Positions 9,908 to 38,519 of a stretch of DNA of 64,000 nt are shown here, piece after piece. The notes beneath the pieces are model-generated. The model did not search any database. It was not told the DNA's origin and worked only from the letters and a program-made list of their open reading frames with translations. A program made the position numbers and the translations under genes. The DNA is taken from assembly GCA_003762875.1 (NCBI GenBank), contig RIBL01000013.1:1-64000 (forward strand), read 5' to 3'. The DNA is from Muribaculaceae bacterium Isolate-110 (HZI). GTDB taxonomy: Bacteria; Bacteroidota; Bacteroidia; Bacteroidales; Muribaculaceae. How positions within the stretch are numbered: the first letter of the stretch is position 1; every line of letters starts with the position of its first letter.

Positions 9908-10062
9908 TTGCCCGAAGGGCAAAGGTTATAAGGTTATGGGGTTAAACCGTCCGGCCTCCACTTATCAACCTCATCCAGACCTCATCCGGCCCTACGGCCC
10001 AATAATATCCTGCAAGTTAACCTTATAACCTCATAACCTTATAACCTTTGGCCGTAGGCCAA
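9908..10062 (+). repeat. Palindromic junction element, copy A (hisCB-hisH)
   Basis: The left end is a hairpin TTGCCCGAAGGGCAA (9908-9922) followed by GGTTATAAGGTTAT. The right end is the inverse, TTATAACCTCATAACC and on to a hairpin TTGGCCGTAGGCCAA (10048-10062). The arms can pair along their length. The element begins one base after the hisCB stop codon and ends 7 bases before the hisH ATG, filling the gap almost exactly. Other copies lie at 24892, 27294, 30278, 33455 and 38368. Confidence 0.85.
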
Positions 10063-10069
10063 CTAAGAT

Positions 10070-10663
10070 ATGATTGCTATAATTGACTATTCCACCGGCA
10101 ACCTCCGCTCCGTAGGCAACGCCCTCTCCCGCATCGGAGCCGAATGGACCCTCACAGCCGACCCGCGACTCATCCGACAGGCCGACCGCGTGCTTCTGCC
10201 CGGCGTAGGCCACTGCGGCGAATCACTAGCCCGTCTGCGCGCCACAGGGCTCGACACAGTGATACGCGATCTGCGTCACCCCGTGCTCGGCATATGTGTG
10301 GGCATGCAGATGATGTGTCGCGACACCGAGGAAGGCGATGTCCAAGGCCTCGGCATTTTCGACGCCCACGTGCGACGTTTCATCCCCGGGCCCGACGACA
10401 AAGTGCCCCACATGGGATGGAACTCTATACATAACCTCGAGAAAGGACTCTTCAAAGGCATACCCTCGGGGGCCTTCGTCTACTATGTCCACTCCTACTA
10501 CGCCAACCTCTGCCCCGACACCATCGCCACAACACGATTCGGTAGCGAAGGCCGGATGTTTAGCGCGGCTCTGAAATATGAAAACTTCTACGGCACCCAG
10601 TTCCACCCCGAAAAGAGCGGAGACATAGGCGAACAGATACTCTGTAATTTTCTTAAACTATAG
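10070..10663 (+). CDS. hisH: Imidazole glycerol phosphate synthase, glutaminase subunit
   Basis: HisH releases ammonia from glutamine and passes it to HisF. The 197-aa class-I amidotransferase has the nucleophile cysteine in GICVGMQMM (about C76) and the C-terminal His/Glu pair in QFHPEKSGD (about H179, E181). The N-terminus IAIIDYSTGNLRSVGNAL is typical. The start codon lies 7 bases after the terminal hairpin of junction element copy A, which may influence initiation. Confidence 0.97.
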   Translation: MIAIIDYSTGNLRSVGNALSRIGAEWTLTADPRLIRQADRVLLPGVGHCGESLARLRATGLDTVIRDLRHPVLGICVGMQMMCRDTEEGDVQGLGIFDAHVRRFIPGPDDKVPHMGWNSIHNLEKGLFKGIPSGAFVYYVHSYYANLCPDTIATTRFGSEGRMFSAALKYENFYGTQFHPEKSGDIGEQILCNFLKL

Positions 10664-10784
10664 CTATCGAATTTAGAGCTTAAAGTTTAGAGTTTAGTGA
10701 ATAGAGCTTAACGACAGATACCCCCGCCTCCCCCCGGCTTGCCTCAAATTACTAATTACTAATTGCTAATTACTAATTGTTAAT
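10664..10784 (+). repeat. Gap hisH-hisA: AGTTTAGAGTTTA and TAATTACTAATTGC tracts
   Basis: This non-coding gap carries both AT-rich tract types: GTTTA-type units at about 10673-10706 and TAATTACTAATTGC-type units at 10747-10784, ending a few bases before the hisA ATG. Confidence 0.6.
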
Positions 10785-10793
10785 TCCTTCCAG

Positions 10794-11525
10794 ATGCTTC
10801 TTCCAGCTATTGATATAATTGACGGCAAATGTGTCCGTCTCACCAAAGGCGATTACGCCACACAGACCACTTATGACGCCTCGCCCGTCGACATGGTGAA
10901 ACGCATGGTCGACTCAGGCTTCGGCCGCATCCACGCGGTCGACCTCTCGGGCGCGCGGCAAGGCCATCCGACCGCCCTCAACACACTCGAAAAAATGGCC
11001 GCCGTAAACGGTGCCTCCATCGAATGGGGCGGAGGACTCAAGACCGACTCCGACCTGCGCGACCTCTTCAACGCCGGTGCCACATGGGCCGTAATCGGAA
11101 GTGTAGCCGCCCGACAGCCCCTGCTCTTTAACCACTGGCTGTGTGAATACGGCCCCGACACCATGGTGCTCGGAGCCGACCTACGCGACGGCAAAGTCGC
11201 CGTAAGCGGATGGACCGCCGACGAAGAACTCACCGCCGACGAACTCATCAACCGATTCCGCCCCCTCGGACTCAGCCAGGTCATCGTCACCGACATCTCG
11301 CGCGACGGCATGCTGCAAGGCCCCAACTTTGGCCTTTACACCACCCTGCGCGCCACCCATCCCGACATCATCTTCACCGTCTCGGGCGGCATATCCTCTA
11401 CGGCCGACATACGCCGCTGTCTGGAGCTCGGCCTGCCACGCGTAATCGTAGGCAAAGCCCTCTACGAAGGCCACATCACTCTCGGAGAAATGCAGCAACT
11501 CCAGGAGGAATTTACCACCCGATAA
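10794..11525 (+). CDS. hisA: ProFAR isomerase (phosphoribosylformimino-AICAR ribotide isomerase)
   Basis: This (beta/alpha)8 barrel enzyme performs the Amadori rearrangement of ProFAR to PRFAR. At 243 aa it has the usual length. Landmarks are MLLPAIDIIDGKCVRL with the catalytic aspartate near residue 7, IEWGGGLKTDSDL for phosphate binding, VTDISRDGMLQGPN with the second catalytic aspartate, and the C-terminal phosphate site VSGGISSTADI. It belongs to the his operon and precedes its paralogue hisF. Confidence 0.97.
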   Translation: MLLPAIDIIDGKCVRLTKGDYATQTTYDASPVDMVKRMVDSGFGRIHAVDLSGARQGHPTALNTLEKMAAVNGASIEWGGGLKTDSDLRDLFNAGATWAVIGSVAARQPLLFNHWLCEYGPDTMVLGADLRDGKVAVSGWTADEELTADELINRFRPLGLSQVIVTDISRDGMLQGPNFGLYTTLRATHPDIIFTVSGGISSTADIRRCLELGLPRVIVGKALYEGHITLGEMQQLQEEFTTR

Positions 11526-11556
11526 TCTCTCATCCCACAAACATCCCCCCACGACA

Positions 11557-12318
11557 TTGTTAACCAAGCGCATCATACCCTGTCTGGATGTCAAGGACGG
11601 CCGCACCGTCAAAGGCATCAACTTTGAAGGCCTCGCCGATGTCGGCGATCCCGTGGCTCTCGGAGAACGTTACGCCCTTGAGGGTGCCGACGAACTCGTG
11701 TATCTCGACATCTCGGCCACCCGCGAAGGGCGCGGCACCTTCACCCGCCTCGTAAGCCGCGTAGCCGACCGCGTCAACATCCCCTTCACCGTAGGCGGAG
11801 GCATCTCCTCGCTCGACGACGCGGCAGCCTTGCTCGACGCCGGAGCCGACAAAATATCCATCAACAGTGCCGCCGTGCGCGACCCGCGGCTCATCAGCGA
11901 CATAGCCCGACGCTACGGCAGCCAGTTTGTGGTCGTAGCCATCGACGCCCGCAGCGGAGCCGACGGTGAGTGGCATGTCACCACCCACGGAGGCACGCGC
12001 CTCGCCGACCGACTCCTGTTCCCCTGGGCCAAAGAAGCGCAGGAACGCGGAGCCGGCGAGATACTCTTCACCTCCATGGACCACGACGGCACGCGCTCAG
12101 GCTACCCCTGCGACCTCTACCGTCGGCTCACCTCATCGCTCTCCATCCCCGTCATAGCCTCGGGAGGAGCCGGCAGTCCCGACGACATAGCCGATGTGCT
12201 CACGCTCGGCGGAGCCGACGCCGCACTTGCCGCCAGCATATTCCACTACGGCGAAATCTCTATCCGCGACCTCAAAGCCCGCCTCGCCGACCGCAATATA
12301 CAAGTGAGAGTAGTATAA
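11557..12318 (+). CDS. hisF: Imidazole glycerol phosphate synthase, cyclase subunit, TTG start
   Basis: HisF uses ammonia from HisH to cyclise PRFAR into imidazoleglycerol phosphate and AICAR. The 253-aa barrel shows [17 protein letters not shown] with the catalytic Asp11, [18 protein letters not shown] with the second acid, and [12 protein letters not shown]. The family N-terminus ([12 protein letters not shown]) fits only if translation starts at TTG 11557; no in-frame ATG lies nearby upstream and the next would remove the first catalytic aspartate. The gap to hisA is 31 bases, with no terminator. Confidence 0.95.
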
Positions 12319-12374
12319 AGTTTAATGTATAGAGTTTAGTGAATAGCTTACCAAAAACTGCTAATTGCTAATTG
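12315..12374 (+). repeat. AGTTTAGAGTTTA and CTAATTGC tract before hisIE
   Basis: AT-rich repeat units of both types occupy the short gap between hisF and hisIE. They end six bases before the chosen ATG. Confidence 0.5.
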
Positions 12375-12380
12375 ATCAAA

Positions 12381-12980
12381 ATGGTTTTCTCCGACTTCAA
12401 TCTTGATAAATGTGCCGACCGTCTCCTGCCCGTCATAGTGCAGGACGCCACCACACTGCGAGTGCTCATGCTCGGCTATATGAACCGCGAAGCCTTTGAC
12501 AAAACCGTCGACTGCGGCCTTGTCACCTTCTACTCGCGCACCCGTAAGACACTCTGGACCAAAGGCGAGACCTCAGGCCACCACCTGCGCGTCGTGGAAA
12601 TGTATCCCGACTGCGACATGGACACCCTTCTCATCAAAGCCTGTCCCGTCGGGCCCACATGTCACCGCGGCACCACGGCATGTTTCGACACCCCCGCCGA
12701 AGACGGTTTCATACGTTCGCTCTCCTCTCTCATAGCCCGACGCCACGAAGAAATGCCCGAAGACTCCTACACCACACGCCTCTTTATCAAAGGAGTCAAA
12801 AAGATAGCGCAGAAAGTGGGCGAGGAAGCCGTAGAGTCGGCCATCGAAGCTGTCGACGGCAACCGCGACCGCTTCATCTACGAAGCCGCCGACCTCATGT
12901 ATCACTATCTCGTCTTGCTCGAACAGATGGGTGTGACCCTCCCCGACATCGAGCGCGAGCTCGTCAAACGGCACTCCTGA
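12381..12980 (+). CDS. hisIE: Bifunctional phosphoribosyl-AMP cyclohydrolase / phosphoribosyl-ATP pyrophosphatase
   Basis: This enzyme performs steps 2 and 3 of histidine synthesis. The N-terminal HisI part (residues 1 to about 115) shows LMLGYMNREAFDKT, FYSRTRKTLWTKGETSG and the cysteine-rich metal site CPVGPTCHRG. The C-terminal HisE part (about 118-199) shows KKIAQKVGEEAVESAIEA and the E/D residues of the all-alpha NTP pyrophosphatase fold. I chose ATG 12381 (MVFSDFNLDKCADRL); a TTG nine bases upstream is possible but lies in the repeat tract. It is the last his gene, followed by a long perfect hairpin. Confidence 0.96.
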   Translation: MVFSDFNLDKCADRLLPVIVQDATTLRVLMLGYMNREAFDKTVDCGLVTFYSRTRKTLWTKGETSGHHLRVVEMYPDCDMDTLLIKACPVGPTCHRGTTACFDTPAEDGFIRSLSSLIARRHEEMPEDSYTTRLFIKGVKKIAQKVGEEAVESAIEAVDGNRDRFIYEAADLMYHYLVLLEQMGVTLPDIERELVKRHS

Positions 12981-13010
12981 CCCCAAGAGACGGGAGATAC
13001 ATAAGGACAT

Positions 13011-13069
13011 AAGACTCATAAGAGACATAAGTCTTTACATAATCATGACTTATGTCTCTTATGAGTCTT
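13011..13069. terminator. Bidirectional terminator between hisIE and the sigma factor gene
   Basis: A perfect 23-bp inverted repeat (13011-13033 with 13047-13069) with a 13-base loop sits between convergent genes. A second, short conserved hairpin at 13081-13104 lies between it and the end of the sigma gene. Confidence 0.8.
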
Positions 13070-13080
13070 CGAGGGTACTT

Positions 13081-13104
13081 AGAGGTCGTTTAATAACAAC
13101 CTCT
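13081..13104 (-). repeat. GAGGTTGTT hairpin, copy 1
   Basis: On the minus strand, AGAGGTTGTT and AACRACCTCT arms surround ATTA. The sequence lies 17 bases past the sigma gene stop. Close copies occur at 21616, 55590 and 62634, three of them following a minus-strand gene and preceding a long unique hairpin. Confidence 0.65.
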
Positions 13105-13120
13105 TATATATATCATCACC

Positions 13121-13708
13121 TTATACCTTCACGCTTAGCAAATACAATATTATCAACATATCGGCCTCGGGACCGAGCCAGCCACGCAGCATCTCCAGCA
13201 TCCGTGCCTTTCTTTTTTTGACCGTAATCTCAGCCACGTCGAGCAGACGCGCTATCTCCTTGTTTTTCAGTCCCTGCTCAAAATTCAGTTCGAAAATCTC
13301 GCGATACTGCGGCGGCAGACGGTCGATGGCTGCAAAAAGCCGGTCGAGCGTCTCCTGGCGTATGAGCGCGTAGGATATGTCGCGCTCCATCCCGGCATCC
13401 TCATCCGAATCATCCCCCTCGATAGCCTGGGCATAGCCATCGGCCACACCCTTGTGGCGCACAAGATTGGACGCCTTGTGACGTATACACCTCATCAGGT
13501 ACCAACGCCAGTGAAACGCATCATCTATCTCTCCGGCATGCTCATAGGTGGTCATCACAGCATCCTGCACGCAATCCTCGGCCATAAATGCGAGCGACGG
13601 GCCGAGCAGACGCGACGCAAACGTCAGCAGTCCCGGATACATCACCGTATAAAACGGCACCATCCGGCCCTTGACAAAATTATCATATAATGACTCGTAA
13701 TCTATCAT
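13121..13708 (-). CDS. ECF RNA polymerase sigma factor
   Basis: The product (about 195 aa) has sigma region 2 (EDCVQDAVMTTYEHAGEI, then HWRWYLMRCIRHKASNL) and region 4 (LPPQYREIFELNFEQGLKNK, then EIARLLDVAEITVKKRKARM), the layout of an ECF sigma-70 factor. It stands divergent to a FecR-type anti-sigma gene and a SusC/SusD pair, so it most likely drives that locus when the outer-membrane transporter senses its ligand. A longer frame opens at TTG 13735, but a promoter -7 box covers that position (13733-13740), so I place the start at ATG 13708 (MIDYESLYDNF). Confidence 0.92.
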   Translation of the reverse strand: MIDYESLYDNFVKGRMVPFYTVMYPGLLTFASRLLGPSLAFMAEDCVQDAVMTTYEHAGEIDDAFHWRWYLMRCIRHKASNLVRHKGVADGYAQAIEGDDSDEDAGMERDISYALIRQETLDRLFAAIDRLPPQYREIFELNFEQGLKNKEIARLLDVAEITVKKRKARMLEMLRGWLGPEADMLIILYLLSVKV

Positions 13709-13732
13709 CTGCCCGCAACATGAGTGAGACAG

Positions 13733-13763
13733 CAAAGGTATAGAGTTTTGACATCATTAACAA
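13733..13763 (-). promoter_or_regulatory. Promoter of the ECF sigma gene
   Basis: Minus-strand TACCTTTG (13733-13740) lies 20 bases downstream of TTG (13761-13763), matching the Bacteroidetes housekeeping promoter. Transcription would start near 13726, which decides the sigma start codon at 13708. Confidence 0.75.
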
Positions 13764-13914
13764 GGAGAAATACGTTTTTAATGTTTTATCCTGCTTTTGT
13801 AGACAATTCATGACCTTTTTGTAAAATTTTTGGCAAAAAAATTAAAAATTTGATATACCTTTTATCACCTCGCGTGTAGTCTTAATAAAAACCGAATCAT
13901 TCTCACATCGCAAA

Positions 13915-15096
13915 ATGCATCACGAATCATACATTAGCCGGCTCATCTACCGACGTCTCATAGGCACCATCACCCCTGAGGAGGAAACACTGCTCAGGCA
14001 ATGGCTCGACGAGAGCGAGGACAACCGCCTGTTTCTCGACTCGCTCGCCGACCCCTCGGCCCTTACCGACGAACATCACACCCGCCGCGTGGTCGACCCC
14101 CTGCGTCCGGCCCGCGACATGGAGCTGCGCATCGCCGCCCGCCGTCGTCGCTCACTCATGCGCCGCGCCTCACGCATAGCCGCCGCTGTGGCTATTCTCA
14201 TCATCGCGGCAGGCACGGCATGGCACTTCAGCCGCCACACCCGCCTCGACGCGCCCGCCCAGGACGTCAGCCCGGTGGCCGTGACTCCCGCGCCCAAGAC
14301 CATCGATGACATATCGGCCGGCACCACCCGCGCCACCATCACCAACCAGGCCGGACGGACCATAGCCCTCTCGGCCGGCGAGTCGGGACGTGACGGCACC
14401 ACCCACTTCATACCCAAGGCTTCGGCCGAACATATGCCGCCACAGCAACTGTGTCTCGAAGTGCCCCGCGGAGGCGAGTTCAAGGTGATACTCGAGGACT
14501 CCACCGTGGTGTGGCTCAACTCCGAGTCGACACTCCGCTATCCCGACACCTTCAGCGACACCGAGCGGCGCGTTGCCGTCACGGGCGAGGCCTATTTCAG
14601 TGTGAGCAAAGACCCCTCGCGACCCTTCTACGTCGAGTCGGAGGGACAGGTGATACGAGTCTACGGCACCACATTCAACGTCCGCGCCTATCCCGACGAG
14701 GACGCCACCTACACCACCCTCGAGACCGGCTCCATATCGCTTGCACGCGACACTGCTCCCTCGGGCGAGATATTCCTCTCCAAAGGCCACCAGGCCATCC
14801 TCGACCACAGTTCCGACAGGGTGAGCATGGCCGTTGTCGACCCTGCCGCCGTCACCTCGTGGCGTCACGGACGGTTTGTGTTTGACGACCAGCCTCTCGA
14901 GCGCATCATGCGCGACCTGAGCCGATGGTATGACTTCCGCTACGAGTTTGCCGACGACTCACTGCGCTCGCGGGTATTCATGGGCGGCATACCGCGATAT
15001 GCCGACTTCCGCACGGCCATACAGGTGCTCGAAAACTGCGGAGGCATACGCTTCACCCTCACTCCCGACAACAAGATACTCATCTCGGGGCTGTAG
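13915..15096 (+). CDS. FecR-family anti-sigma factor
   Basis: This 393-aa inner-membrane protein has a cytoplasmic N-terminal sigma-binding part (ITPEEETLLRQWLDESEDNR, residues 15-40), one transmembrane segment near 85-103 (IAAAVAILIIAAGTAWHF), and a periplasmic FecR domain (about 175-275: VPRGGEFKVILEDSTVVWLN, GEAYFSV, VYGTTFNVRAY) followed by a DUF4974-like end (FDDQPLERIMRDLSRWYD, YADFRTAIQVLE). In the family it holds the ECF sigma until the partner TonB-dependent transporter signals through its STN domain. It is divergent from the sigma gene and directly upstream of susC. No housekeeping promoter is obvious before it, so it may be read by its own ECF sigma. Confidence 0.93.
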   Translation: MHHESYISRLIYRRLIGTITPEEETLLRQWLDESEDNRLFLDSLADPSALTDEHHTRRVVDPLRPARDMELRIAARRRRSLMRRASRIAAAVAILIIAAGTAWHFSRHTRLDAPAQDVSPVAVTPAPKTIDDISAGTTRATITNQAGRTIALSAGESGRDGTTHFIPKASAEHMPPQQLCLEVPRGGEFKVILEDSTVVWLNSESTLRYPDTFSDTERRVAVTGEAYFSVSKDPSRPFYVESEGQVIRVYGTTFNVRAYPDEDATYTTLETGSISLARDTAPSGEIFLSKGHQAILDHSSDRVSMAVVDPAAVTSWRHGRFVFDDQPLERIMRDLSRWYDFRYEFADDSLRSRVFMGGIPRYADFRTAIQVLENCGGIRFTLTPDNKILISGL

Positions 15097-15167
15097 ACCT
15101 CCCGATTACACTTACCATGACAATCAACTTTTTTTCATAACCCAATCATTATTTAACCCCCACGCCT

Positions 15168-18821: not shown

Positions 18822-18833
18822 AGCCGTATCAAA

Positions 18834-23666: not shown

Positions 23667-24881
23667 ATGATTGACCATATACTCACCGAGGAAGTCACCG
23701 AGCGCGCAGTGCTCGTGGGACTCATCAGCAACCAGCAGAACGAAGCCAAGGCGCGTGAATATCTCGACGAACTGGCTTTTCTGGCCGACACGGCCGGGGC
23801 TGTGACCGTAAAGACATTTCTTCAGAAACTTGAGTATCCCAACCCGCGCACCTATGTGGGCAAGGGCAAACTCGAGGAGATACGCGCCTATATCGAGGAC
23901 AATGACATAGGAATGGCTATCTTTGACGATGACCTGTCGTCAAAGCAAGTGGTGAATATCGAGCGTGAACTCAAGGTGAAGATACTTGACCGCACCAGTC
24001 TTATCCTCGACATCTTTGCCAAGCGTGCGCGTACGGCCAACGCCAAGACGCAAGTCGAGCTGGCCCAGTATCAGTATCTGTTGCCGCGACTTACGCGCAT
24101 GTGGACTCACCTCGAACGCCAGCGCGGCGGTATAGGCATGCGCGGCCCGGGCGAGACGCAGATCGAGACCGACCGCCGTATAATCCTGTCGAAAATATCG
24201 CTGCTGAAGGAGGAGCTGCGTTCCATCGACAAGCAGAAGGCCGTGCAGCGCAAAAACCGCGGCAAGCTCACGCGCGTGGCTCTTGTGGGCTATACCAACG
24301 CCGGCAAGTCGACTCTGATGAATGTGCTGAGCAAGAGCGAGGTGTTTGCCGAAAACAAACTTTTCGCCACGCTCGACACTACGGTGCGCAAGGTCATTAT
24401 CGACAATCTGCCGTTTCTGCTCACCGACACCGTAGGCTTCATACGCAAGCTGCCCACTCATCTTGTCGACTCGTTCAAGTCGACTCTCGACGAGGTGCGC
24501 GAGGCCGACCTGCTGGTGCATGTGGTCGACATCTCTCATCCTCATTTCGAGGAGCAGATCGAGGTGGTCGACAAGACGTTGCGCGAGGTGTGTGACGGTG
24601 CCGACAAACCTATGATAATGGTGTTTAACAAAATCGATGCTTTCACCCATGTGGAGAAGGATGAGAATGATCTGACTCCGCGCATGCGCGAGAATATTCC
24701 TCTCGAGGAGCTCCGCCAGATGTGGATGGCGCGCCTGCCCCATGACTGTGTGTTTATCTCGGCTAAGACGGGCAAGAATATCGATGAACTCAAGCAGATG
24801 CTCTATGAGCGTGCCAAGGAGATTCACCTGACAAGATTCCCTTACAACGATTTCCTCTTCCAGAAATACGACGAGGAGTAG
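23667..24881 (+). CDS. hflX: Ribosome-associated GTPase HflX
   Basis: The 404-aa protein has the HflX N-terminal domain with a glycine-rich linker (RGGIGMRGPGETQIETDRR) and a GTPase domain: G1 GYTNAGKST (about residue 208), G2/G3 region TLDTTVRK and DTVGFIRKLP, and G4 FNKID. The family rescues stalled ribosomes by splitting them under stress. Junction element copy B starts 10 bases after its stop codon and links it to the deacetylase gene. Confidence 0.96.
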   Translation: MIDHILTEEVTERAVLVGLISNQQNEAKAREYLDELAFLADTAGAVTVKTFLQKLEYPNPRTYVGKGKLEEIRAYIEDNDIGMAIFDDDLSSKQVVNIERELKVKILDRTSLILDIFAKRARTANAKTQVELAQYQYLLPRLTRMWTHLERQRGGIGMRGPGETQIETDRRIILSKISLLKEELRSIDKQKAVQRKNRGKLTRVALVGYTNAGKSTLMNVLSKSEVFAENKLFATLDTTVRKVIIDNLPFLLTDTVGFIRKLPTHLVDSFKSTLDEVREADLLVHVVDISHPHFEEQIEVVDKTLREVCDGADKPMIMVFNKIDAFTHVEKDENDLTPRMRENIPLEELRQMWMARLPHDCVFISAKTGKNIDELKQMLYERAKEIHLTRFPYNDFLFQKYDEE

Positions 24882-24891
24882 TCGGGCAAAG

Positions 24892-25087
24892 CCCGAAGGT
24901 TATGAGGTTAGCCTGCGGGGTAATTTTGAGCCAAATGGGGCTAATGGGCCCAATGAGGCTAATGGGTCCCGGGCAGGAACACCGTATACTTTACATTATA
25001 ATCTTTTGCCCTTCGGGCAAATAATAACCCTCACCCGAAGGTTAACCTCATAACCCCATAACCTTATAACCTTTGCCCGCAGGGCAA
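24892..25087 (+). repeat. Palindromic junction element, copy B (hflX-deacetylase)
   Basis: The left hairpin TCGGGCAAAGCCCGA (24892-24906) and GGTTATGAGG arm are matched by right-arm 8-bp units and the hairpin TTGCCCGCAGGGCAA (25073-25087). The core (about 24912-25015, TGCGGGGTAATTTTGAGCC and on) is nearly the same as in copy E. It ends 6 bases before the deacetylase ATG. Confidence 0.85.
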
Positions 25088-25093
25088 GTTAAT

Positions 25094-25711
25094 ATGTGGA
25101 TTGAACAGCCCCCTATATTTTACCGACTGCTTTTCACGGAGGCATGGTGGCGGCTCAAAAGACACGGACGCAAACTTGTGTACCTGACTTTTGATGACGG
25201 CCCTGTGCCTGAGGAGACTCCGTGGGTGCTTGACCTGCTCGACAAAGAGGGGGTCAAGGCTACATTTTTTATGGTCGGAGACAATGTGCGCCGCCACCCC
25301 GAACTACTGGAGGAGGTGCGCCGCCGCGGCCATTCCTATGGCAACCATACCATGCATCATCTCCAGGGTCTCAAGGAGAGCAACGCCCGATATTTCCGCG
25401 ATATCACCGAGGCTTCCGAACTGATACAGTCGTCGCTTTTCCGTCCGCCCCACGGCATCATATGGCCGGGACAGGCGCGGTTGATCAAGCGTCACTATAA
25501 TGTGGTGATGTATGACCTCGTGACACGCGATTACTCCAAACGTATCGACGGGGAGAGGGTGTTGGAGAATGTGAAACGTTATGCGCGCAACGGCAGCATC
25601 ATAGTGTTTCATGACTCTATCAAGGCTCATAAGAATATGCGCTATGCTCTGCCCCGGGCCATCAAGTGGCTCAAGGAGCAGGGATATGAGTTTGAGACTC
25701 TGCCGATGTAA
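25094..25711 (+). CDS. Polysaccharide deacetylase family protein
   Basis: The 205-aa product shows the NodB motifs of carbohydrate esterase family 4: motif 1 YLTFDDGPVPEET with the catalytic and metal-binding aspartates, motif 2 SYGNHTMHH with the metal histidines, motif 3 FRPPHG and the late motif IIVFHDS. It would remove N-acetyl groups from a cell-wall or surface glycan; there is no signal peptide and the substrate is unknown. ATG 25094 lies 6 bases after the terminal hairpin of element B. An upstream in-frame start would lie inside the hairpin and is less likely. Confidence 0.9.
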   Translation: MWIEQPPIFYRLLFTEAWWRLKRHGRKLVYLTFDDGPVPEETPWVLDLLDKEGVKATFFMVGDNVRRHPELLEEVRRRGHSYGNHTMHHLQGLKESNARYFRDITEASELIQSSLFRPPHGIIWPGQARLIKRHYNVVMYDLVTRDYSKRIDGERVLENVKRYARNGSIIVFHDSIKAHKNMRYALPRAIKWLKEQGYEFETLPM

Positions 25712-27293: not shown

Positions 27294-27342
27294 TTGCCCG
27301 AAGGTTAACCTCATAACCTCACAACCTTTGCCCTCAGGACAA
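27294..27342 (-). repeat. Palindromic junction element, copy C (short form)
   Basis: A shortened copy lies between yidD and tatD: TTGCCCGAAGG at one end, two 8-bp units, and a near-palindrome TTGCCCTCAGGACAA (27328-27342) at the other. It starts four bases past the yidD stop (minus strand) and ends 25 bases before the tatD ATG. Confidence 0.65.
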
Positions 27343-27346
27343 ATAA

Positions 27347-27580
27347 CTAAGGTACAGGGTCGTAGCCAGAGCCGCCCCAGGGATGGCAACGGGCTATGCG
27401 CTTCAGAGCGAGCCATGAGCCGCGCAACGCGCCGTGGCGCATGATAGCCTCGATGGCATACTGGCTACACGTCGGAGTGTAGCGGCACGCTGCCGGAAAC
27501 ATAGGCGACAGGCATAGCTGATAGAAGCGTATGGGCAGGATGAGGAGTCTTTTCAATAACAAGTCAGAGTAACGAATCAA
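27347..27580 (-). CDS. yidD: Membrane protein insertion efficiency factor YidD
   Basis: The 77-aa protein shows [20 protein letters not shown] followed by SQYAIEAI and the C-terminal [13 protein letters not shown], the YidD signature with its conserved cysteines. It aids YidC-dependent insertion of inner-membrane proteins. It lies 10 bases after rnpA, the usual order. Confidence 0.95.
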
Positions 27581-29564: not shown

Positions 29565-29600
29565 TTAGTAATTAGTAATTAGCAATTAGTAATTAATTGA
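29562..29600 (-). repeat. TAATTACTAATTGC tract before the DUF4271 gene
   Basis: Read on the minus strand, TAATTACTAATTGC units run directly into the candidate TTG start of DUF4271, the same position relative to a gene start as the tracts in the his operon. Confidence 0.6.
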
Positions 29601-29673
29601 CAATTTATTTTGCCCGATGACGAAGGCTATGCTGCGGCATTGCTTTTTCAATTCATCTCAAGATGATGCCTGT

Positions 29674-30231: not shown

Positions 30232-30238
30232 AAGGCTG

Positions 30239-30269
30239 CAAAGGTACTTATTTTATTTAACCTAAGCAA
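30239..30269 (-). promoter_or_regulatory. Promoter of the LOG-family gene
   Basis: Minus-strand TACCTTTG (30239-30246), 20 bases after TTG (30267-30269), fits the housekeeping consensus. The ATG follows by 7 bases from the -7 box, giving a nearly leaderless transcript. Confidence 0.7.
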
Positions 30270-30277
30270 TATCAGAC

Positions 30278-30429
30278 TTGGCCTGCGGCCAAAGGTTATG
30301 AGGCTATAAGGTTAGCCTGAGGGGTAATTTGGGGGGCTAATGGGGCGGACAGCATGGGCACATGATATTAACTTTATAACCTTTAGTTGAAGAGCAACTA
30401 TAAACTCATAACCTTTGCCCGTAGGGCAA
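30278..30429 (-). repeat. Palindromic junction element, copy D
   Basis: Hairpin TTGGCCTGCGGCCAA (30278-30292) at one end, TTGCCCGTAGGGCAA (30415-30429) at the other, with an inner TAGTTGAAGAGCAACTA hairpin and a shortened version of the core seen in copies B and E (GTAATTTGGGGGGCTAATGG). It overlaps the last codons of the 168-aa gene, so the gene's C-terminus (LPYGQRL) is encoded by the element. Confidence 0.8.
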
Positions 30430-30912: not shown

Positions 30913-30927
30913 GGCTGACGTTGTTTT

Positions 30928-31338: not shown

Positions 31339-31384
31339 AATAGGATGGAATAATAATATTAGGTATGGGCACAATTATCGTTGG

Positions 31385-31414
31385 CAAATTTACCACACCA
31401 CATGGGCAAACCAA
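31385..31414 (-). promoter_or_regulatory. Promoter inside the cassette, before the duplicated-repeat gene
   Basis: Minus-strand TAAATTTG (31385-31392) lies 19 bases after TTG (31412-31414). This is a host-type promoter and would express the last two genes of the cassette separately from the portal-like gene. Confidence 0.65.
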
Positions 31415-31437
31415 CGACACATGCACGTAAAAATTTG

Positions 31438-32733: not shown

Positions 32734-32758
32734 GGCTATTGCGGTTAAGAGGATGTTT

Positions 32759-33298
32759 TTAACAGCTCATTACATTGTCAATCAGAGCGAGGGCAGCCGA
32801 GTCAAATGCATACTCGTTGTCGCGCATCATGGCGCAGCGCAGCGACACCAGACGGTCTGACTCACAGGCCGGGTAGAGAGCCATCTCACCGTCGGGATAC
32901 ACTATGGCCACAGGATTGGCCTCACAGGCCCGGGTGTAGGGATGGAGCTGACGCAAAGCCATATTGCACTCGGGGTCGGTGACAATGGTGGCCGCGCGTC
33001 GCCAGCCCGAAAGCCTGACGCCGGTCACTCTCGCGGCGTAGGGAGGAAGCGTGAGAGTGACACATCCGTCGGCCGGAGCTGAAAGGCTCACGTCGGCGGC
33101 CAGTTCTTCGGGAGCGAGCAGCGGCTCATCGCCCTCGAGCACAAGGCGACGATACCAGCCGTCCATCTCAGCCTCGAGACGGGCGTCAAAATCGAGTCCG
33201 TCAGAACGGCTGAGCGACACATCGTTACGCAGCGGAGCATATCCGCGCAACGCTCGCCAGCGTGACAGGAACTCCTGTCGTGACATTTTTAGTTTCAT
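32759..33298 (-). CDS. Uncharacterised protein, first gene of the portal-like cassette, possible head-tail adaptor-like
   Basis: The 179-aa product has a helical N-terminus (SRQEFLSRWRALRGY, LEAEMDGWYRRLV), then a beta-rich part with TLPPYAARVTGVRLSGWRR and HPYTRACEANPVAIVYPDGE. The order adaptor-like small protein next to a portal-like protein recalls phage neck modules, but no motif proves this. The gene begins the cassette, under a host-type -7 box at 33359-33366. Confidence 0.6.
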   Translation of the reverse strand: MKLKMSRQEFLSRWRALRGYAPLRNDVSLSRSDGLDFDARLEAEMDGWYRRLVLEGDEPLLAPEELAADVSLSAPADGCVTLTLPPYAARVTGVRLSGWRRAATIVTDPECNMALRQLHPYTRACEANPVAIVYPDGEMALYPACESDRLVSLRCAMMRDNEYAFDSAALALIDNVMSC

Positions 33299-33358
33299 AA
33301 ATCAAGTGATAAAATGAGGGTTGTTGATGGTGCGGGGGATGATTGGGTGTTGTGGATG

Positions 33359-33366
33359 CAAAGTTA
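33359..33366 (-). promoter_or_regulatory. -7 box of the portal-like cassette
   Basis: Minus-strand TAACTTTG fits TAnnTTTG about 60 bases before the first gene of the cassette. A TTTTG lies upstream but only 16 bases away. Confidence 0.5.
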
Positions 33367-33410
33367 ACGCCGCCGGAAGCCACAAAAGGTGCGATAATGT
33401 CGCGCAACAG

Positions 33411-33441
33411 TTTGAATAAACATCAAAAAAAACTACTTTTG
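33411..33441 (+). promoter_or_regulatory. Canonical promoter of bioB
   Basis: TTTG (33411-33414), 19 bases, TACTTTTG (33434-33441) match the Bacteroidetes consensus exactly. Transcription would begin near 33448, just before junction element E, making the whole element part of the bioB leader. Confidence 0.8.
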
Positions 33442-33454
33442 CAAGGTTGTTTAC

Positions 33455-33712
33455 TTGGCCTTCGGCCAAAGGTTATAAGGTTATGAGGTTATAAGGTTAA
33501 CCTGCGGAGTAATTTTGAGCCAAATGGGGCGAATGGGCCCAATGAGGCTAATAGGCCGGGCAGGGACACCGTTATAATTTACATTATAATCCTATAACTT
33601 TGCCCATAGGCCAGGCAATAACCCTTGCCCGAAGGGCAAGTAATAACCTCATAACCTTATAACCTTATAACCTTATAACCTTATAACCTTATAACCTTTG
33701 CTCGAAGAGCAA
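33455..33712 (+). repeat. Palindromic junction element, copy E, forming the bioB 5' leader
   Basis: The longest copy: left hairpin TTGGCCTTCGGCCAA (33455-33469) and GGTTATAA units; a core nearly the same as in copy B (about 33496-33600); an extra hairpin TTGCCCGAAGGGCAA (33625-33639); an 8-bp tandem array (AACCTCAT, five AACCTTAT, AACCTTTG; 33645-33700); and the terminal hairpin TTGCTCGAAGAGCAA (33698-33712), ending 5 bases before the bioB ATG. Confidence 0.88.
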
Positions 33713-33717
33713 GTAAT

Positions 33718-34671
33718 ATGTATAGAGACAGAATATTGTCAGGTGGGAGCCTGACAGCCGATGAAGCCCTGGAGCTCGTCAATATTACCGACAGCAGCCG
33801 CAAAAAGCTGTATGACACGGCAGCCGAAATCACACGACATTTCGGCCCGCGCAAATTTGACTCCTGCTCCATCATCAACGCGCGTTCCGGCCGCTGCCCC
33901 GAGGACTGCAAATGGTGTGCCCAGTCGGCCCACTTCAGCACCACCATCAACAGCTATCCCCTCGTGGAGCGCGAAGTGTGTATGGACATGGCCGCCTACA
34001 ATCAGCGCGCCGGCATCGGACGGTTTTCGCTCGTGACCAGCGGACGCACAGTCAAAGGCGAAGCTCTCGACACCATCTGCTCCTACTACCGTCAGCTCAG
34101 CCGTGACACCGATATATATCTGTGTGCCTCGATGGGCCTGCTCGACGACGAAGCCATGGAGCGACTGGCACAGGCCGGCGTAAAACGCTATCATTGCAAC
34201 CTCGAGACAGCCGCAAATTTCTTTCCCTCGCTGTGCTCCACCCACAGCCGCGAAGAGAAACTCACCGCCATCGCCCGGGCCCGCCGGGCCGGCATGGAGA
34301 TATGCTCGGGCGGCATCATAGGCATGGGCGAGACCATGAGACAGCGAGTGGAGTTTGCCCTCGAGTTGCGCGAAGTCAACCCCGTGAGCATCCCACTCAA
34401 CGTGCTCCAGCCCATCCCTGGCACACCGCTCGAACACATGCCGCCGCTCACCGACACCGAGATACTCGACACTGTGGCGATATTTCGTCTGGTGCATCCG
34501 CGCGTGATCATACGCTTCGCCGGAGGCCGCGCGCGCATCTCGCCCTATGCCCAGCGCGAAGCACTGCGCATAGGTGTCAACGGTGCCATAATGGGTGATC
34601 TTCTCACTACCATAGGAGCGCAGATAGAGCAGGACAAAACCATGATAAAAGAGTGCGGATATGACTTCTGA
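33718..34671 (+). CDS. bioB: Biotin synthase
   Basis: BioB is a radical-SAM enzyme that inserts sulfur into dethiobiotin. The 317-aa protein has the radical SAM cluster motif CPEDCKWC (from about residue 60), KFDSCSIINARSGRCPEDC around it, YLCASMGLLDDEAMERLA, the segment YHCNLETAANFFPSLCSTHS with the conserved YNHNLD-like region, and RFAGGRARISP with the arginine that binds the second Fe-S cluster. The start lies 5 bases after a hairpin of element E. It overlaps the following ThiF-like gene by 11 bases, so the two are likely translationally coupled. No other bio genes are adjacent. Confidence 0.96.
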   Translation: MYRDRILSGGSLTADEALELVNITDSSRKKLYDTAAEITRHFGPRKFDSCSIINARSGRCPEDCKWCAQSAHFSTTINSYPLVEREVCMDMAAYNQRAGIGRFSLVTSGRTVKGEALDTICSYYRQLSRDTDIYLCASMGLLDDEAMERLAQAGVKRYHCNLETAANFFPSLCSTHSREEKLTAIARARRAGMEICSGGIIGMGETMRQRVEFALELREVNPVSIPLNVLQPIPGTPLEHMPPLTDTEILDTVAIFRLVHPRVIIRFAGGRARISPYAQREALRIGVNGAIMGDLLTTIGAQIEQDKTMIKECGYDF

Positions 34672-35371
34672 CGACCGTAAGCGTTACCGCGGCCACCTCT
34701 CGCTCTGCGAGATAGACCTGCCCGGACAGCAGCGCATAGCGCAGGGACGGGTGCTGATAGTCGGAGCCGGCGGCCTCGGCTCGCCCGTAGCCCTCTATCT
34801 GGCCGCCGCAGGAGTGGGCCATATAGCCGTGCTCGACCCCGACACTGTGAGTCTGAGCAATCTGCAGCGTCAGATTATCCACGGTACCCCCGACCTCGGA
34901 CGTCACAAAGCACTCTCGGCGCGCGATGCCATGACCCGCATCAACCCGACGGTGACCGTCGAGCCCCTCACCGACAGCCTCACCCTCGGCAATGCCCGCG
35001 ACATCATAGACCGCTATGATCTCGTGATCGACTGCACCGACAATCTCGACACCCGCCTGCTCATCAACGACACCTGTGCAACGACCGGCAAGAGCTACGT
35101 GTTCGGGGCCGTACGCCGCTTTGAGGGTCAGGTGTTTACCCACACTCCGGGCACCGCCTCCTATCGCGACATCTTCGGTTCGGAGCCGAGCGAAGGGGGC
35201 GACATCCCGTGTGCGGTCGACGGCGTGATGAACACCGTGGTGGGCGTCATCGGATGTCTCCAGGCCACCGAGGCCATAAAGTGGCTGGCCCACACCGGCG
35301 ACCTCCTCACCGACCGGCTGCTCACCTTCGACGCCATCACCATGACTTTCAATACATTCCGACTTGGATGA
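34661..35371 (+). CDS. ThiF/MoeB/HesA-family adenylyltransferase
   Basis: The 236-aa E1-like enzyme has the ATP-binding loop VGAGGLGSPVALYLAAAGVG (about 31-50), the arginine-finger segment DTVSLSNLQRQIIHGTPDLG and VIDCTDNLDTRLLIND with the ATP-contacting acid. These enzymes adenylate the C-terminal glycine of a ubiquitin-like sulfur carrier (ThiS or MoaD). The usual zinc CxxC pairs are missing: the position of CYRC reads SYRDIFGSEP and the C-terminal CxxC is absent. A cysteine remains in GDIPCAVDGVMNTVVG. It overlaps bioB by 11 bases with no thi or moa gene beside it. Its partner is unknown. Confidence 0.88.
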   Translation: MTSDDRKRYRGHLSLCEIDLPGQQRIAQGRVLIVGAGGLGSPVALYLAAAGVGHIAVLDPDTVSLSNLQRQIIHGTPDLGRHKALSARDAMTRINPTVTVEPLTDSLTLGNARDIIDRYDLVIDCTDNLDTRLLINDTCATTGKSYVFGAVRRFEGQVFTHTPGTASYRDIFGSEPSEGGDIPCAVDGVMNTVVGVIGCLQATEAIKWLAHTGDLLTDRLLTFDAITMTFNTFRLG

Positions 35372-35439
35372 CAGTTTTACTGCCAAGCTCAATTAAGGAA
35401 CTTTAACATTCATATCCCCCCTATCCCGCCCATTTTCAG

Positions 35440-35447
35440 TAATTTTG
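35440..35447 (+). promoter_or_regulatory. -7 box of the MetE-like gene
   Basis: TAATTTTG fits TAnnTTTG 39 bases before ATG 35487. It overlaps the more upstream start of the same frame (35445), which argues for the downstream ATG. Confidence 0.5.
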
Positions 35448-35486
35448 CGCCCGGCAGACAATAGAGTGTTACAACATCATAATATC

Positions 35487-36608
35487 ATGACACACACCAA
35501 CAACCAATCGCCACGCGTAGAAATCGTAGGCAGTTTTCTCCCACCCGAGGAGCTTGAACAGGCCATAGAGCAGAAGTGTCAGGGCGTCATCACGCCCGAC
35601 GAGCTTCATGCCGTAGAAGACCGCGTGATCGACCGGCTCATCGACCGCGAAATCGAGGCCGGACTCCACATCATCACCGACGGCGAGATGCGCCGCAAAG
35701 CCTGGGACCGAGACTTCTGGGAAGGCCTCTCGGGCATGAGCCGCGAACGCATCGACACCGGCTACATCCATCAGGACGAAGTAGTGCGCCACGATCTGCT
35801 CCGCATCAACGGACGCATAGCCTACAATCCCGGACACCCGTTTTTTGAGAAATACACCCACATGGTGGATATAGCCGCCGGCCGTGCCGCCGTGCGCCAG
35901 ACCATACCTTCGCCGGGCGAGCTCTATATGCGCATCATGCTCGTGACCAACGGAGAACCCGGCAAGGTGTATGAATCGCCCGCCACACTCATCGACGACA
36001 TCGTCGATGCCTACCGCAGCACCATCGATGAATTTTACCGCCTCGGATGCCGCCACATCCAGCTCGACAGCTCGGTGTGGGGACGTCTCAGCGACCCCGA
36101 CTTTGAGCGCAGACTCCTGCTCGGAGGCATGGACCCCGACGTGATTACCGAGCAGCTTCTCGAGCTCATCAACCGCACCGTGGCCGGCCGTCCCGCCGAC
36201 CTCGAAATCACCCTCAGCATCGCGGCCGACGAGACCCGCATACCCCGCTGGGGCGACGAGCGCGAGTTGCGTCACCTCACCCGCATGCTCACAGGTGTCG
36301 ACGCTGACTCCTTCCTGCTCCCATTCGACCTGCACAGCCCCGAGCACACCGAGGCCCTCAAGGCCCTGCCCGACGGCAAGCGTGTCATCCTCGGACTCGT
36401 CGACGGCAGCATGTCGGGACTCGAGAGCGTCAACGATATCGTCGAGGCTGTCAGGACGGCTTCACTCTACGTCGAGCCTTCGCGCCTGTCCATAAGCCCG
36501 ACATGCGGATTCAAGGTAGCCGACCGAGAGCGTCAGGGCCTCAACTATGAGTCGCAGTGGACCAAAATTGACCTGCTCAAACAAGCTGCCGCCATACTGA
36601 GCATATAG
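35487..36608 (+). CDS. MetE C-terminal-domain-like protein, altered metal site
   Basis: The 373-aa protein resembles the single-domain MetE relatives (YxjG/YxjH type): VEIVGSFLPPEEL, IITDGEMRRKAWDRDFWEGL, RHIQLDSSVWGRL, and late KRVILGLVDGSMSGLESVND and SISPTCGFKVA with the conserved late cysteine. Relatives bind zinc through a His-x-Cys pair in a segment of the type LHVCRGN. Here that segment reads ITLSIAADETRIP (near residues 239-250), so the first His and Cys are missing. It may be a non-classical methyltransferase or have lost activity. The start MTHTNNQSPRVEIVGSF is chosen because of the -7 box upstream. Confidence 0.8.
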   Translation: MTHTNNQSPRVEIVGSFLPPEELEQAIEQKCQGVITPDELHAVEDRVIDRLIDREIEAGLHIITDGEMRRKAWDRDFWEGLSGMSRERIDTGYIHQDEVVRHDLLRINGRIAYNPGHPFFEKYTHMVDIAAGRAAVRQTIPSPGELYMRIMLVTNGEPGKVYESPATLIDDIVDAYRSTIDEFYRLGCRHIQLDSSVWGRLSDPDFERRLLLGGMDPDVITEQLLELINRTVAGRPADLEITLSIAADETRIPRWGDERELRHLTRMLTGVDADSFLLPFDLHSPEHTEALKALPDGKRVILGLVDGSMSGLESVNDIVEAVRTASLYVEPSRLSISPTCGFKVADRERQGLNYESQWTKIDLLKQAAAILSI

Positions 36609-36667
36609 GCCGCGACCCAAAAACTTAAAAAATCATGAAAAATGCACCGATATTGGTGTATTTTTTG

Positions 36668-36675
36668 TATCTTTG
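36668..36675 (+). promoter_or_regulatory. -7 box at the head of the exopolysaccharide locus
   Basis: TATCTTTG fits TAnnTTTG. Transcription would start near 36682, giving a leader of about 165 bases before upxY. Such leaders in Bacteroides loci are where UpxY acts. Confidence 0.55.
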
Positions 36676-36822
36676 CTCATCATCCCGAGGTCAGAGCCGC
36701 AAATGCCGCCGGGTCGGAGGCATGGCTTGGATCCGAAGTTACAAAGAGAATGGGAGACCCACAACCTGCACATACAAGCACCTTTCCCACACCCCTTTTG
36801 AAATAGACGGACTGACCTGTGA

Positions 36823-36848
36823 CCCCCGCCCCGGGCAATGGGACGGGG
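36823..36848 (+). other. GC-rich hairpin over the upxY start region
   Basis: CCCCCGCCCC pairs with GGGACGGGG, ending one base before ATG 36850 and covering the alternative ATG 36838. It could limit initiation or act in the leader during antitermination. Shown by base pairing only. Confidence 0.45.
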
Positions 36849-36849
36849 A

Positions 36850-37422
36850 ATGAAAGATATGTGCCTGACCGTTAATTCACCTTCCAATAACCATCCCCGC
36901 ACAGTGAGCCGCTGGTACGCGCTCAAAGTATTCTACAACAAGGTTTTTGACCTGCGCGACACTCTTGCCGGGCGGGTTGATGACACATATATACCGGTGA
37001 CCGTATCGGTCGTGGAGCGCGGCGGCGTAAAGAAGCGCGTGGAGCGGCCGCTCATATCGTCGCTGATGTTCATACGAGCCACCCCCGAGGCTGCCGCATC
37101 GCTCGGACCGGTCATCGAGGGCAAAGCCATGATATACACCGCCATGACCGCCGCCGGTCGACACCCAGTGGCCATACCCGACAGGGAGATGAACATATTC
37201 ATGCTCGTGACATCGCGCGGCGAATGGGGAGTGGAATATATCGGTGACGACATGACTCGCTATCATTCGGGCGACCGAGTGAGAGTGATCGACGGTCCGT
37301 TCAAAGGCTCCGAAGGACACATAGTCCGCATCAGAGGCGACCACCGTCTCGTGGTCACCATCGACGGGCTCTGTGCGATAGCCACAGGCTATATACCACG
37401 CCCCTTCCTTCAGAAAATCTGA
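36850..37422 (+). CDS. UpxY-family transcription antiterminator (NusG-like)
   Basis: The product (about 190 aa) has an NGN domain (SRWYALKVFYNKVFDLRDTL, FIRATPEAAASLGPVI) and a C-terminal KOW motif (RYHSGDRVRVIDGPFKGSEG, HIVRIRGDHRLVV), the layout of the UpxY proteins that head capsule and exopolysaccharide operons in Bacteroides and allow RNA polymerase to read through long operons. It is the first gene of the glycan locus. No UpxZ partner is seen. ATG 36850 (MKDMCLTV) is chosen over ATG 36838, which lies in a hairpin; an internal start near the SRWYALKV segment is also possible. Confidence 0.9.
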   Translation: MKDMCLTVNSPSNNHPRTVSRWYALKVFYNKVFDLRDTLAGRVDDTYIPVTVSVVERGGVKKRVERPLISSLMFIRATPEAAASLGPVIEGKAMIYTAMTAAGRHPVAIPDREMNIFMLVTSRGEWGVEYIGDDMTRYHSGDRVRVIDGPFKGSEGHIVRIRGDHRLVVTIDGLCAIATGYIPRPFLQKI

Positions 37423-37574
37423 ACAGGCAGCTATCCCCCTCCCTCTCCCCTCTCTTCTCCACACCTTCCATAAATACACTACACAGTAGCTTGCGGCATG
37501 ACGCGATGACATCGCGCCTCACCTTACGCCTCACCACCGACATAACCGAAACACAGTGCAAAGCAACACATAAC

Positions 37575-38366
37575 ATGAAGACTACATTTCACACCTTCCG
37601 ACGAATCTTCACATACGGAGCATTGATTCTATCGGGAATAATGACCTCATGCGGGCCCGCCAAAGACATCATATATATTGAAGACCTGCAGCCCGAGGCC
37701 GAAATCACACTCCAGCCCGACGGAGAGCTGCGTCTGCAGCCCGGCGACCATGTATCGGTCAACGTGTACAGCCGCGACGAAGAGCTGGCCAAGATGTTCA
37801 ACATCAACCTCGTCGGCACAAGCCTCCGCAACCAGGAGTCAAACTACTACACCGTCGACTCGCAGGGCAACATCGACTTCCCCATTCTCGGCAATCTCCA
37901 AGTGCAAGGCCTCACGCGCATGGAAGTGGCACAGCTCATAAAATACCGGCTGCTGGCAGGACAGCTTCTGCGCGACCCTATTGTCACCGTACATTTCCCC
38001 GACATGGCCTTCTACGTAATAGGCGAGTCGGGCGTAGGCCGGCACGAATTTCCCTCTGACAAACTCAATCTTCTCGAAGCCATCTCCATCTCGGGCGACC
38101 TACAGCTCACGGGCAAACGCACCAACGTATTAGTGCTTCGCACCGAGGGTGACAGACAGGTGCCCTATCGTGTGGACTTCACCAGAACCGACGACCTCTA
38201 CGGCTCGCCGGCCTACTACGTGCGCCAGAACGACATGATATATGTCGAGCCAACCCAGGTAAAAGCCAACCAGAGCACTGCCCACGGCAACAACTATCTC
38301 ACCATCGGATTCTGGACATCAATGCTCTCCCTGGCCGCAACCCTCACAGTCCTATTCACAAAGTAA
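37575..38366 (+). CDS. Wza-type polysaccharide export lipoprotein
   Basis: The 263-aa product begins with a lipoprotein signal (ILSGIMTSCGPAK, cysteine near residue 26) and has the export domain (LQPGDHVSVNVYSRDEELAK), a SLBB-like part (YVIGESGVGRHEFPSDKLNL) and a C-terminal hydrophobic segment (IGFWTSMLSLAATLTVLF). It probably forms the outer-membrane channel for the polymer. The frame opens at 37491, but ATG 37575 gives a proper signal peptide. Junction element F starts one base after its stop. Confidence 0.92.
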   Translation: MKTTFHTFRRIFTYGALILSGIMTSCGPAKDIIYIEDLQPEAEITLQPDGELRLQPGDHVSVNVYSRDEELAKMFNINLVGTSLRNQESNYYTVDSQGNIDFPILGNLQVQGLTRMEVAQLIKYRLLAGQLLRDPIVTVHFPDMAFYVIGESGVGRHEFPSDKLNLLEAISISGDLQLTGKRTNVLVLRTEGDRQVPYRVDFTRTDDLYGSPAYYVRQNDMIYVEPTQVKANQSTAHGNNYLTIGFWTSMLSLAATLTVLFTK

Positions 38367-38367
38367 C

Positions 38368-38519
38368 TTGCTATTCGAGCAAAGGTTATAAGGTTAACCT
38401 CATAACCATCGAGCTTTGCCCGACTAATTTGCAAAAACATCCCGCAGATTAACCTCATAACCTCACAACCTTTGCCCGAAGGGCAAGTAATAACCCCATA
38501 ACCTTCGGGCTTTGCCCGA
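38368..38519 (+). repeat. Palindromic junction element, copy F (wza-wzc)
   Basis: Left hairpin TTGCTATTCGAGCAA (38368-38382), GGTTATAA arm, right 8-bp units, hairpin TTGCCCGAAGGGCAA (38472-38486) and a last hairpin TCGGGCTTTGCCCGA (38505-38519), the exact inverse of the left hairpin of copy B. It begins one base after the wza stop and ends 8 bases before the wzc ATG. Confidence 0.85.

Follow-up and report, generated by a model that had tools for sequence, protein, structure and literature searches.

Why would a repeat fit so exactly between the stop codon of one gene and the start codon of the next? The question is raised by 64,000 nucleotides (nt) of DNA from Muribaculaceae bacterium Isolate-110 (HZI) (contig RIBL01000013.1, positions 1 to 64,000 of the forward strand), here called the window, in which six copies of such a repeat, A to F, are found (Table 1). 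Its unit is a palindrome, often with a 6-bp stem and a 3-nt loop, followed by 8-bp repeats. In two-ended copies the units are oppositely oriented and their hairpins face outward. An earlier note on this DNA deduced an RNA function from the fixed placement and the covarying stems. The placement is indeed non-random, but congeners lack the element at most orthologous junctions. We consider it very probable that the copies arose by insertion of dispersed repeats. With distinctly less confidence, we lean toward regarding them as miniature copies, devoid of an open reading frame (ORF), of inverted-array elements that carry an S23 gene.

Distribution of the Repeats

The window belongs to a genome of 3.42 Mb in 100 contigs (G000, the source genome), which was compared with the congeners G009, G010 and G013. 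The octamer dimer ATAACCTYATAACC, with at most one mismatch, has 63 + 56 matches in the source genome (three for a reversed-pattern control) and 57 + 81 in G013. The other 25 of 27 genus genomes have 0-4 matches each, as do their controls. Of 61 genomes from the genus, family and order, two contain a stricter pattern, and viral contigs gave no exact match to one strict pattern. Octamers accompanied by hairpins occupy at least 39 loci in the source genome and at least 36 in G013, doubtful ones still counted (for example L226 3273 and the outer hairpin of L052 833, inside coding sequence); L071, which holds no real element, was removed. Two-ended copies shorter than 350 nt are found at 13 of the 39 and 8 of the 36 loci, and many copies are single-ended. 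With their inverted ends, the lack of an ORF, many dispersed copies and presence or absence between relatives, the repeats share these features with miniature inverted-repeat transposable elements (MITEs).

A scan of a genome collection returned one record, JAMPHR010000002.1 (L104), that is titled Paenibacillus and matches G013 over the compared stretch. The title looks wrong.

Placement at Stop and Start Codons

Placement was counted with a home-made gene caller, using only outermost units with an outward-facing hairpin. Stop-facing ends lie 0-4 nt from a called stop in 13 of 20 cases in the source genome and 13 of 27 in G013 (26/47 together); a further four and five overlap the called gene, and three and nine lie farther away. 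On the other side, the first ATG in any frame stands at +3 to +11 of 25/33 and 10/16 start-facing ends, respectively, as against 244 of 1380 random spacer positions (p = 5e-13 and 8e-5), and at +5 to +9 of 22/33 and 10/16 (32/49 together). Distances to stop and start codons are thus non-random in both species, as the earlier note had supposed. Short gaps alone do not account for the closeness on the stop side at long-spacer loci. In spacers of at least 40 nt, with overlaps counted as 0, stop-side ends fall within 10 nt at 8/11 loci in the source genome (0.65 expected) and 13/18 in G013 (1.46 expected), and start-facing ends of the source genome, judged by uncorrected starts, do so at 10/21 (2.1 expected). 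Repetitive extragenic palindromes (REPs) are described as having a comparable bias toward ORF 3' ends (in part of PMC3733652).

The window copies illustrate the pattern. Copy A begins 1 nt past a stop ending at 9906, and 7 nt separate its right end from the ATG at 10070. F likewise begins 1 nt past a stop, which ends at 38366, and is separated by 8 nt from the ATG at 38528. The right end of E, at 33712, leaves 5 nt up to the ATG at 33718. These positions had been given correctly. For B, the right end does lie 6 nt before the ATG at 25094, but the start had been misplaced at 24892. The copy begins at 24882 with the perfect hairpin TCGGGCAAAGCCCGA, 0 nt past the TAG at 24879-24881. Between copy C and the stop of a yidD-like ORF (ending at 27347) there are 3 nt; the gene caller overlooked this ORF, which was labelled by eye, without a search. 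Outside the window, the element at L060 fills a 5' leader, starting 8 nt past a TACCTTTG box (which we take to be one from the Bacteroidetes consensus) and ending 7 nt before the ATG.

Two further observations concern gene ends and spacers. At L241 ~4046 in G013, the end of the called gene itself looks like a repeat unit (hairpin and GGTTATAA), with the stop codon within the octamer. Spacers in the carrier species were not clearly longer, although the gene caller is too coarse for this comparison.

Orthologous Junctions With and Without the Element

Twenty-three orthologous junctions were read by eye, as was the orthology of their neighbours, and about half had been picked because both ends were flush. 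F and L047, with no usable orthologous junction, and L069, with an unmatched neighbour, were left out. The element is absent from at least one congener at 20 of the 23. At the other three (the second L059 site, L065 and L262) only G013 was read, and G013 has the element.

The empty sites are mostly small, with a gap of at most 30 nt in some congener at 15 of the 20. The genes overlap at A, B, C and L046, and the gap is 1 nt at L057, 4 nt at L066, 6-9 and 9 nt at the two L051 junctions, 9 nt at L053, 12 nt at L054, 16 nt at L060 (a leader) and L068, 19 nt at L059, 26 nt at L067 and 27 nt at L063. The longer class comprises L070 (39 nt), L052 (45 nt), L062 at ftsQ/ftsA (55 nt), L061 and E. In the congeners, the hisB/hisH-type junction of A is short or overlapping and free of the element, and in G013 the TatD-type and yidD-like genes flanking C overlap (ATGA). 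The junction of B holds an element with other stems in G013 and none in G009 and G010, and no element was seen upstream of the bioB orthologue (copy E) in G009, G010 or G013.

The bases left outside the element approximate the native spacer: 3 + 6 nt against 9 nt in G009 at L051, 0 + 16 against 16 nt in G013 at L068, and 8 + 7 against 16 nt in G009 at L060. The ends therefore appear to lie close to the codons because the element went into tiny untranslated slots, and flush placement largely reflects such insertion. This location would reflect either target choice or the survival of harmless insertions. In the latter case copies would persist where few untranslated bases lie between a stop and the start codon that follows, or within short 5' leaders, and ends would be flush with the codons because only copies that break nothing survive. 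Several copies, though not B, have TAA on both sides, a possible target-site duplication that is confounded by stop codons and element ends. Where both species have the element (B, L059 twice, L070, L262 and L065), the octamers are kept and the stems are mostly different.

Hairpins, Folds and a Possible RNA Function

What if the repeat is instead an RNA element kept by selection, whose hairpins and arm duplex serve for stop-start coupling, for start-site shielding or as a mark for processing? Much of what suggested this is real. Besides the stop and start distances in two species, the genes on either side are co-directional at 62 of 73 loci (L227 and L254 of G013, without a neighbour on one side, are not included). 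There are 68 hairpins in the source genome (61 perfect) and 59 in G013 (53 perfect), and those quoted in the earlier note are all present. Their stems do vary in sequence with pairing kept. A strong hairpin stands beside the octamer tract on the 3' side in 56/77 cases and on the 5' side in 20/77, compared with 62 of 4000 random positions.

The predicted folds also speak for this explanation. In the minimum free energy (MFE) RNA structures 21/24 arm positions are paired in A, 16/16 in B and 29/32 in E, so that the proposed pairing of the arms holds in these copies, but it fails in F (0/16). The RNA of A is predicted to form a hairpin, a 22-bp duplex and a hairpin with nothing between (z -4.6); that of F folds strongly (z -6.3) with its arms unpaired. 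An arm duplex (at least eight arm positions) is predicted in 17 of 21 two-ended copies, the others being F, L069, L236 (14269) and L238. For the DNA strand of A the MFE fold resembles that of the RNA, and the centroid is without the end hairpins.

Nevertheless, selection for an RNA element is an unlikely origin. The element is missing between the same genes in congeners, and neither single-ended copies nor those between convergent genes (8/73) can couple a stop to a start. The changes in the stems also suit it less well. Among 23 distinct 15-mers of the source genome (138 pair cells), five of the six pairs change on both sides; there are 26 double changes, no one-sided change of the G-U type and two unpaired cells, in hairpins preselected for Watson-Crick pairing. 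The absence of one-sided changes fits palindrome turnover or selection on single-stranded DNA (ssDNA) better than slow RNA compensation. Finally, the loops follow the DNA. Read on the unit's strand, GNA/GNNA loops number 76/127 and TNC/TNNC loops 11/127, the closing pair is C-G in 106/127, and stop-side loops alone are GNA/GNNA in 24/47 and TNC in 4/47. Loop bases follow the orientation of the unit, and the mRNA therefore has complementary loop types at its two ends. In DNA, loops of the GNA type have unusual stability.

Neither a fixed position nor covariation of the stems is thus proof of RNA regulation by itself, because palindromic units entering tiny spacers can yield both. Insertion of dispersed repeats is still compatible with consequences for the mRNA. 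A two-ended copy would close as hairpin, arm duplex and hairpin and so draw the flanking cistrons near each other. By analogy with what is reported for rRNA inserts, the duplex is a potential RNase III substrate, and processing of paired-arm copies is possible, judging from the modelled folds.

A Link to S23 Genes

A candidate parent stands at L062, the ftsQ/ftsA junction of the source genome (both gene labels assigned by eye). There, 593 nt read hairpin, array, S23 gene, array, hairpin, with octamer arms and the hairpins outward. The intact 125-aa ORF matches PF05635 (23S_rRNA_IVP) with E 3.8e-34, and also TIGR02436. Its closest solved chain is 2gsc (XCC0516), and it has weak matches to Avd, a protein of diversity-generating retroelements (DGR), well below that model's cut-off. 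At the same junction G013 has an S23-less element with the same kind of ends, and G009 has none. The stop-side hairpins of the two carriers share the core ATTGAG/CTCAAT and differ in their outer pairs. No S23 ORF lies in A to F; a gene of this family between complementary ends is found at L062 and at part of the S23 loci at large.

The association extends beyond this octamer. Within the genus, the longest inverted repeat flanking S23 genes has a median of 14 nt (n=17), compared with 8 nt in a control set of 89 genes (p=5e-8). The test took 17 of 23 matches above the curated cut-off; three weak matches, one broken (L352) and two without a locus were dropped, one of the last (G000:C57) being read separately, and L329, L330 and L350, whose ORF bounds failed, were kept as low values. 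Arrays of 7-9 bp adjoin at least one side of 14/16 genus S23 genes (L350 dropped) and 8/11 on plasmids, compared with 9/89 controls. Inverted arrays built of other 7-8-mers enclose many of the genus S23 genes, and by eye the genes at L333 and L334 are bracketed by hairpin-plus-heptamer units. Plasmid matches come from 23 records, mostly of cyanobacteria. The 11 examined are all cyanobacterial. Their S23 genes stand between cas6 and cas4 (two records), between cas10 and a Cmr3-family gene, between ribonucleotide reductase genes and in comparable settings, and in five of the 11 the inverted repeat exceeds all 200 shuffles. Our search of the open-access literature found no publication linking S23 genes to short arrays.

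In the element we propose, each end would be a variable-sequence palindrome followed by a tandem 8-mer array (AGGTTATA), both ends pointing outward, and the full form would carry the gene for the S23 (23S rRNA IVP, PF05635) four-helix-bundle protein between the arrays. We infer that the elements move and that the S23 form is the parent.

Several observations weigh against this. Only one S23 copy of the source genome has this octamer family and the array at the single S23 match of G013 is related but different (ATAAACCT), so that parentage rests on one locus and a general pattern. That pattern has its exceptions, with an inverted repeat below 14 nt at 7/17 genus loci, none above shuffles at 5/11 plasmid loci, and arrays on both sides at only 8/16 and 6/11, respectively. 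S23 is small, and to our knowledge it has no catalytic activity. The inner hairpins of G013 have seven GNA-type and five TNC-type loops. In G013, start-facing ends in spacers of at least 40 nt lie within 10 nt at 1/9 loci (0.76 expected, uncorrected starts), which is chance level, and the Fisher tests of that long-spacer analysis set overlaps to distance 0, which favours the stop side. Some probability also remains for an ancient repeat that benefits the host and has disappeared from the other species.

Separately, S23 genes with GAGTATA-type heptamers stand at apparently one junction (by eye) in three species (G000:C57:112437 (L364), L328 and L330). Some copies may therefore be old and inherited.

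Other Explanations

A different kind of mobility would be that of REPs and bacterial interspersed mosaic elements (BIMEs), moved by a Y1 transposase (REP-associated tyrosine transposase, RAYT, or TnpA-REP) acting on ssDNA hairpins. The loop and closing-pair preferences fit, and the bases flanking the hairpin foot are mostly TNAC-like in the source genome. They are T-A-rich in G013, and no conserved GTAG/GTRG or CGTC tag was found. REPs are also reported near ORF 3' ends (PMC3733652), and genes of the Bacteroidetes TnpA subclass 2.6 are flanked by atypical structures, according to part of PMC6006769. We nevertheless consider this explanation improbable, more so than an RNA element. The only PF01797 gene of the source genome is flanked by other hairpins, G013 is equally rich in elements and has no PF01797 match (at 86% completeness), non-carriers have up to seven, and the stems are not fixed within the family. 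A RAYT link was rejected, as no Y1 transposase gene flanked by these repeats was found in the source genome, nor in the 86% of G013.

The window does hold a second, RAYT-type repeat family. At 51011-51550, an inverted repeat of 124 nt (85%) lies between the REP words GATGTCTTTCAGACATC and GATGTCCCTGCCGGGACATC, and similar words also stand beside the one Y1 transposase gene of the genome (L103), on its flanks.

Least probable of the three is that the spacers grew in place, through slippage and the correction of palindromes, without any mobile element. Site A of G013 has apparent duplications of its own junction and ATAAACCT repeats, a hairpin arm at L233 repeats 13 nt of the gene's end, and several spacers near the his genes are filled by heptamer arrays that belong to other families. 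Growth of this kind would hardly place the same octamer, with outward hairpins, at ~40 dispersed loci, or an S23 gene within such ends at ftsQ/ftsA.

Other candidates fell quickly: Rfam families (none matches the window at gathering scores), a Bacteroidetes -7 box in TAACCTTTG (one base off the consensus we take to be TAnnTTTG, and most G013 hairpins are without TTTG) and integron attC sites (there is no integron context). By eye, without a family search, no autonomous element was recognised in L236 12032-12542 or near L229/L250.

Copies in the Window

Internal copies read, from the gene inward, TTAC, hairpin and AGGTTATAAGGTTAT. Parts and settings are given in Table 1.

Table 1. Repeat copies in the window (window positions), their settings and parts.
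Copy	Position	Setting	Parts
A	9908-10062	hisB-type gene / hisH-type gene junction	left half: hairpin 9908-9922, then AGGTTATA units 9923-9945; right half: TTATAACC units 10017-10047, then hairpin 10048-10062
B	24882-25087	HflX-type GTPase / polysaccharide deacetylase junction	hairpins: left 24882-24896, inner 25006-25020, right 25073-25087
C	27297-27343	TatD-type gene / yidD-like ORF	short; degenerate left hairpin, right hairpin 27328-27342
D	30278-30429	adjoins lysine-decarboxylase-family gene	hairpins 30278-30292, 30384-30400, 30415-30429
E	33455-33712	5' leader of bioB-type gene	hairpins: left 33455-33469, inner 33625-33639; octamer array 33644-33697; right hairpin 33698-33712
F	38368-38519	polysaccharide export gene / wzc-type gene	hairpins 38368-38382, 38409-38423, 38472-38486, 38505-38519

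The interiors of B and E (24897-24966 and 33486-33555) share 70 nt at 93% identity, with GGGGCTAATGGGCCCAAT-like repeats; this is a further repeat nested between the arms. Four spacers of the his genes (6772-6935, 8223-8262, 10664-10793 and 12319-12380) hold heptamer arrays of the types TAATTAC/TAATTGC and AAGTTTA.

Comparison With Known Systems

Several known repeats resemble these in part. The MITEs NEMIS/Correia, RUP and ERIC are likewise non-autonomous and intergenic, and NEMIS RNA has been proposed as an RNase III target (in part of PMC2229807). Here, in contrast, no transposase link was found, and there are octamer arrays and variable end palindromes. REPs and BIMEs share short palindromes with alternative complementary stem residues, inverted pairs, the location near ORF 3' ends, termini that supply a stop codon and a class (CGTC) without a dedicated transposase (PMC3733652, in part). 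The present repeats differ in having 8-mer arrays behind the hairpins, stems of great variety inside a single genome and many ends placed 5-9 nt ahead of an ATG.

Tandem heptamer arrays at gene junctions occur in several phyla: GGGAATC-type arrays in Xanthomonas and Nostoc (PMC4692102) and TAACTGA arrays in Beggiatoaceae, Cyanobacteria and Bacteroidetes (PMC4679880). In the relevant parts of these papers the arrays are placed mostly <50 bp from a stop (sense) or start (antisense), or a few nt from starts, and in Xanthomonas they form inverted pairs. Their mode of spread is left open for TAACTGA, for which 'no mechanism is evident' (PMC4679880). Terminal hairpins are not described in those parts, and the terms 'S23' and 'four helix bundle' (in that spelling) do not occur in the two main texts. 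The S23 link might explain such puzzling gene-junction repeats in other bacteria.

A further parallel is offered by intervening sequences (IVSs) of 16S/23S rRNA that carry an S23p ORF. As described in part of PMC4990558, they hold an S23-family ORF within complementary stem-forming ends, occupy sites where continuity of the RNA is dispensable, are scattered in distribution and have a biological role called little known. The repeats described here differ in lying at mRNA junctions between protein genes rather than in rRNA genes, in having tandem 7-8-mer ends capped by hairpins and in being nearly all ORF-less, and RNase III cutting is putative. A wider idea, which we find possible but would not call probable, is that S23/IVP genes mark an undescribed class of mobile elements, found in this genus and cyanobacteria if not more widely, with inverted 7-9-mer array ends, inserting at gene junctions. 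Such elements would have left behind the junction heptamer arrays of cyanobacteria and Bacteroidota, perhaps those of Xanthomonas too, and an rRNA IVS would be the same element residing in rRNA. Insertion might use an RNA intermediate, because the S23 protein weakly resembles the DGR protein Avd. As it stands, the S23 link offers a concrete, testable parent element for junction arrays and may connect them to the intervening sequences of rRNA.

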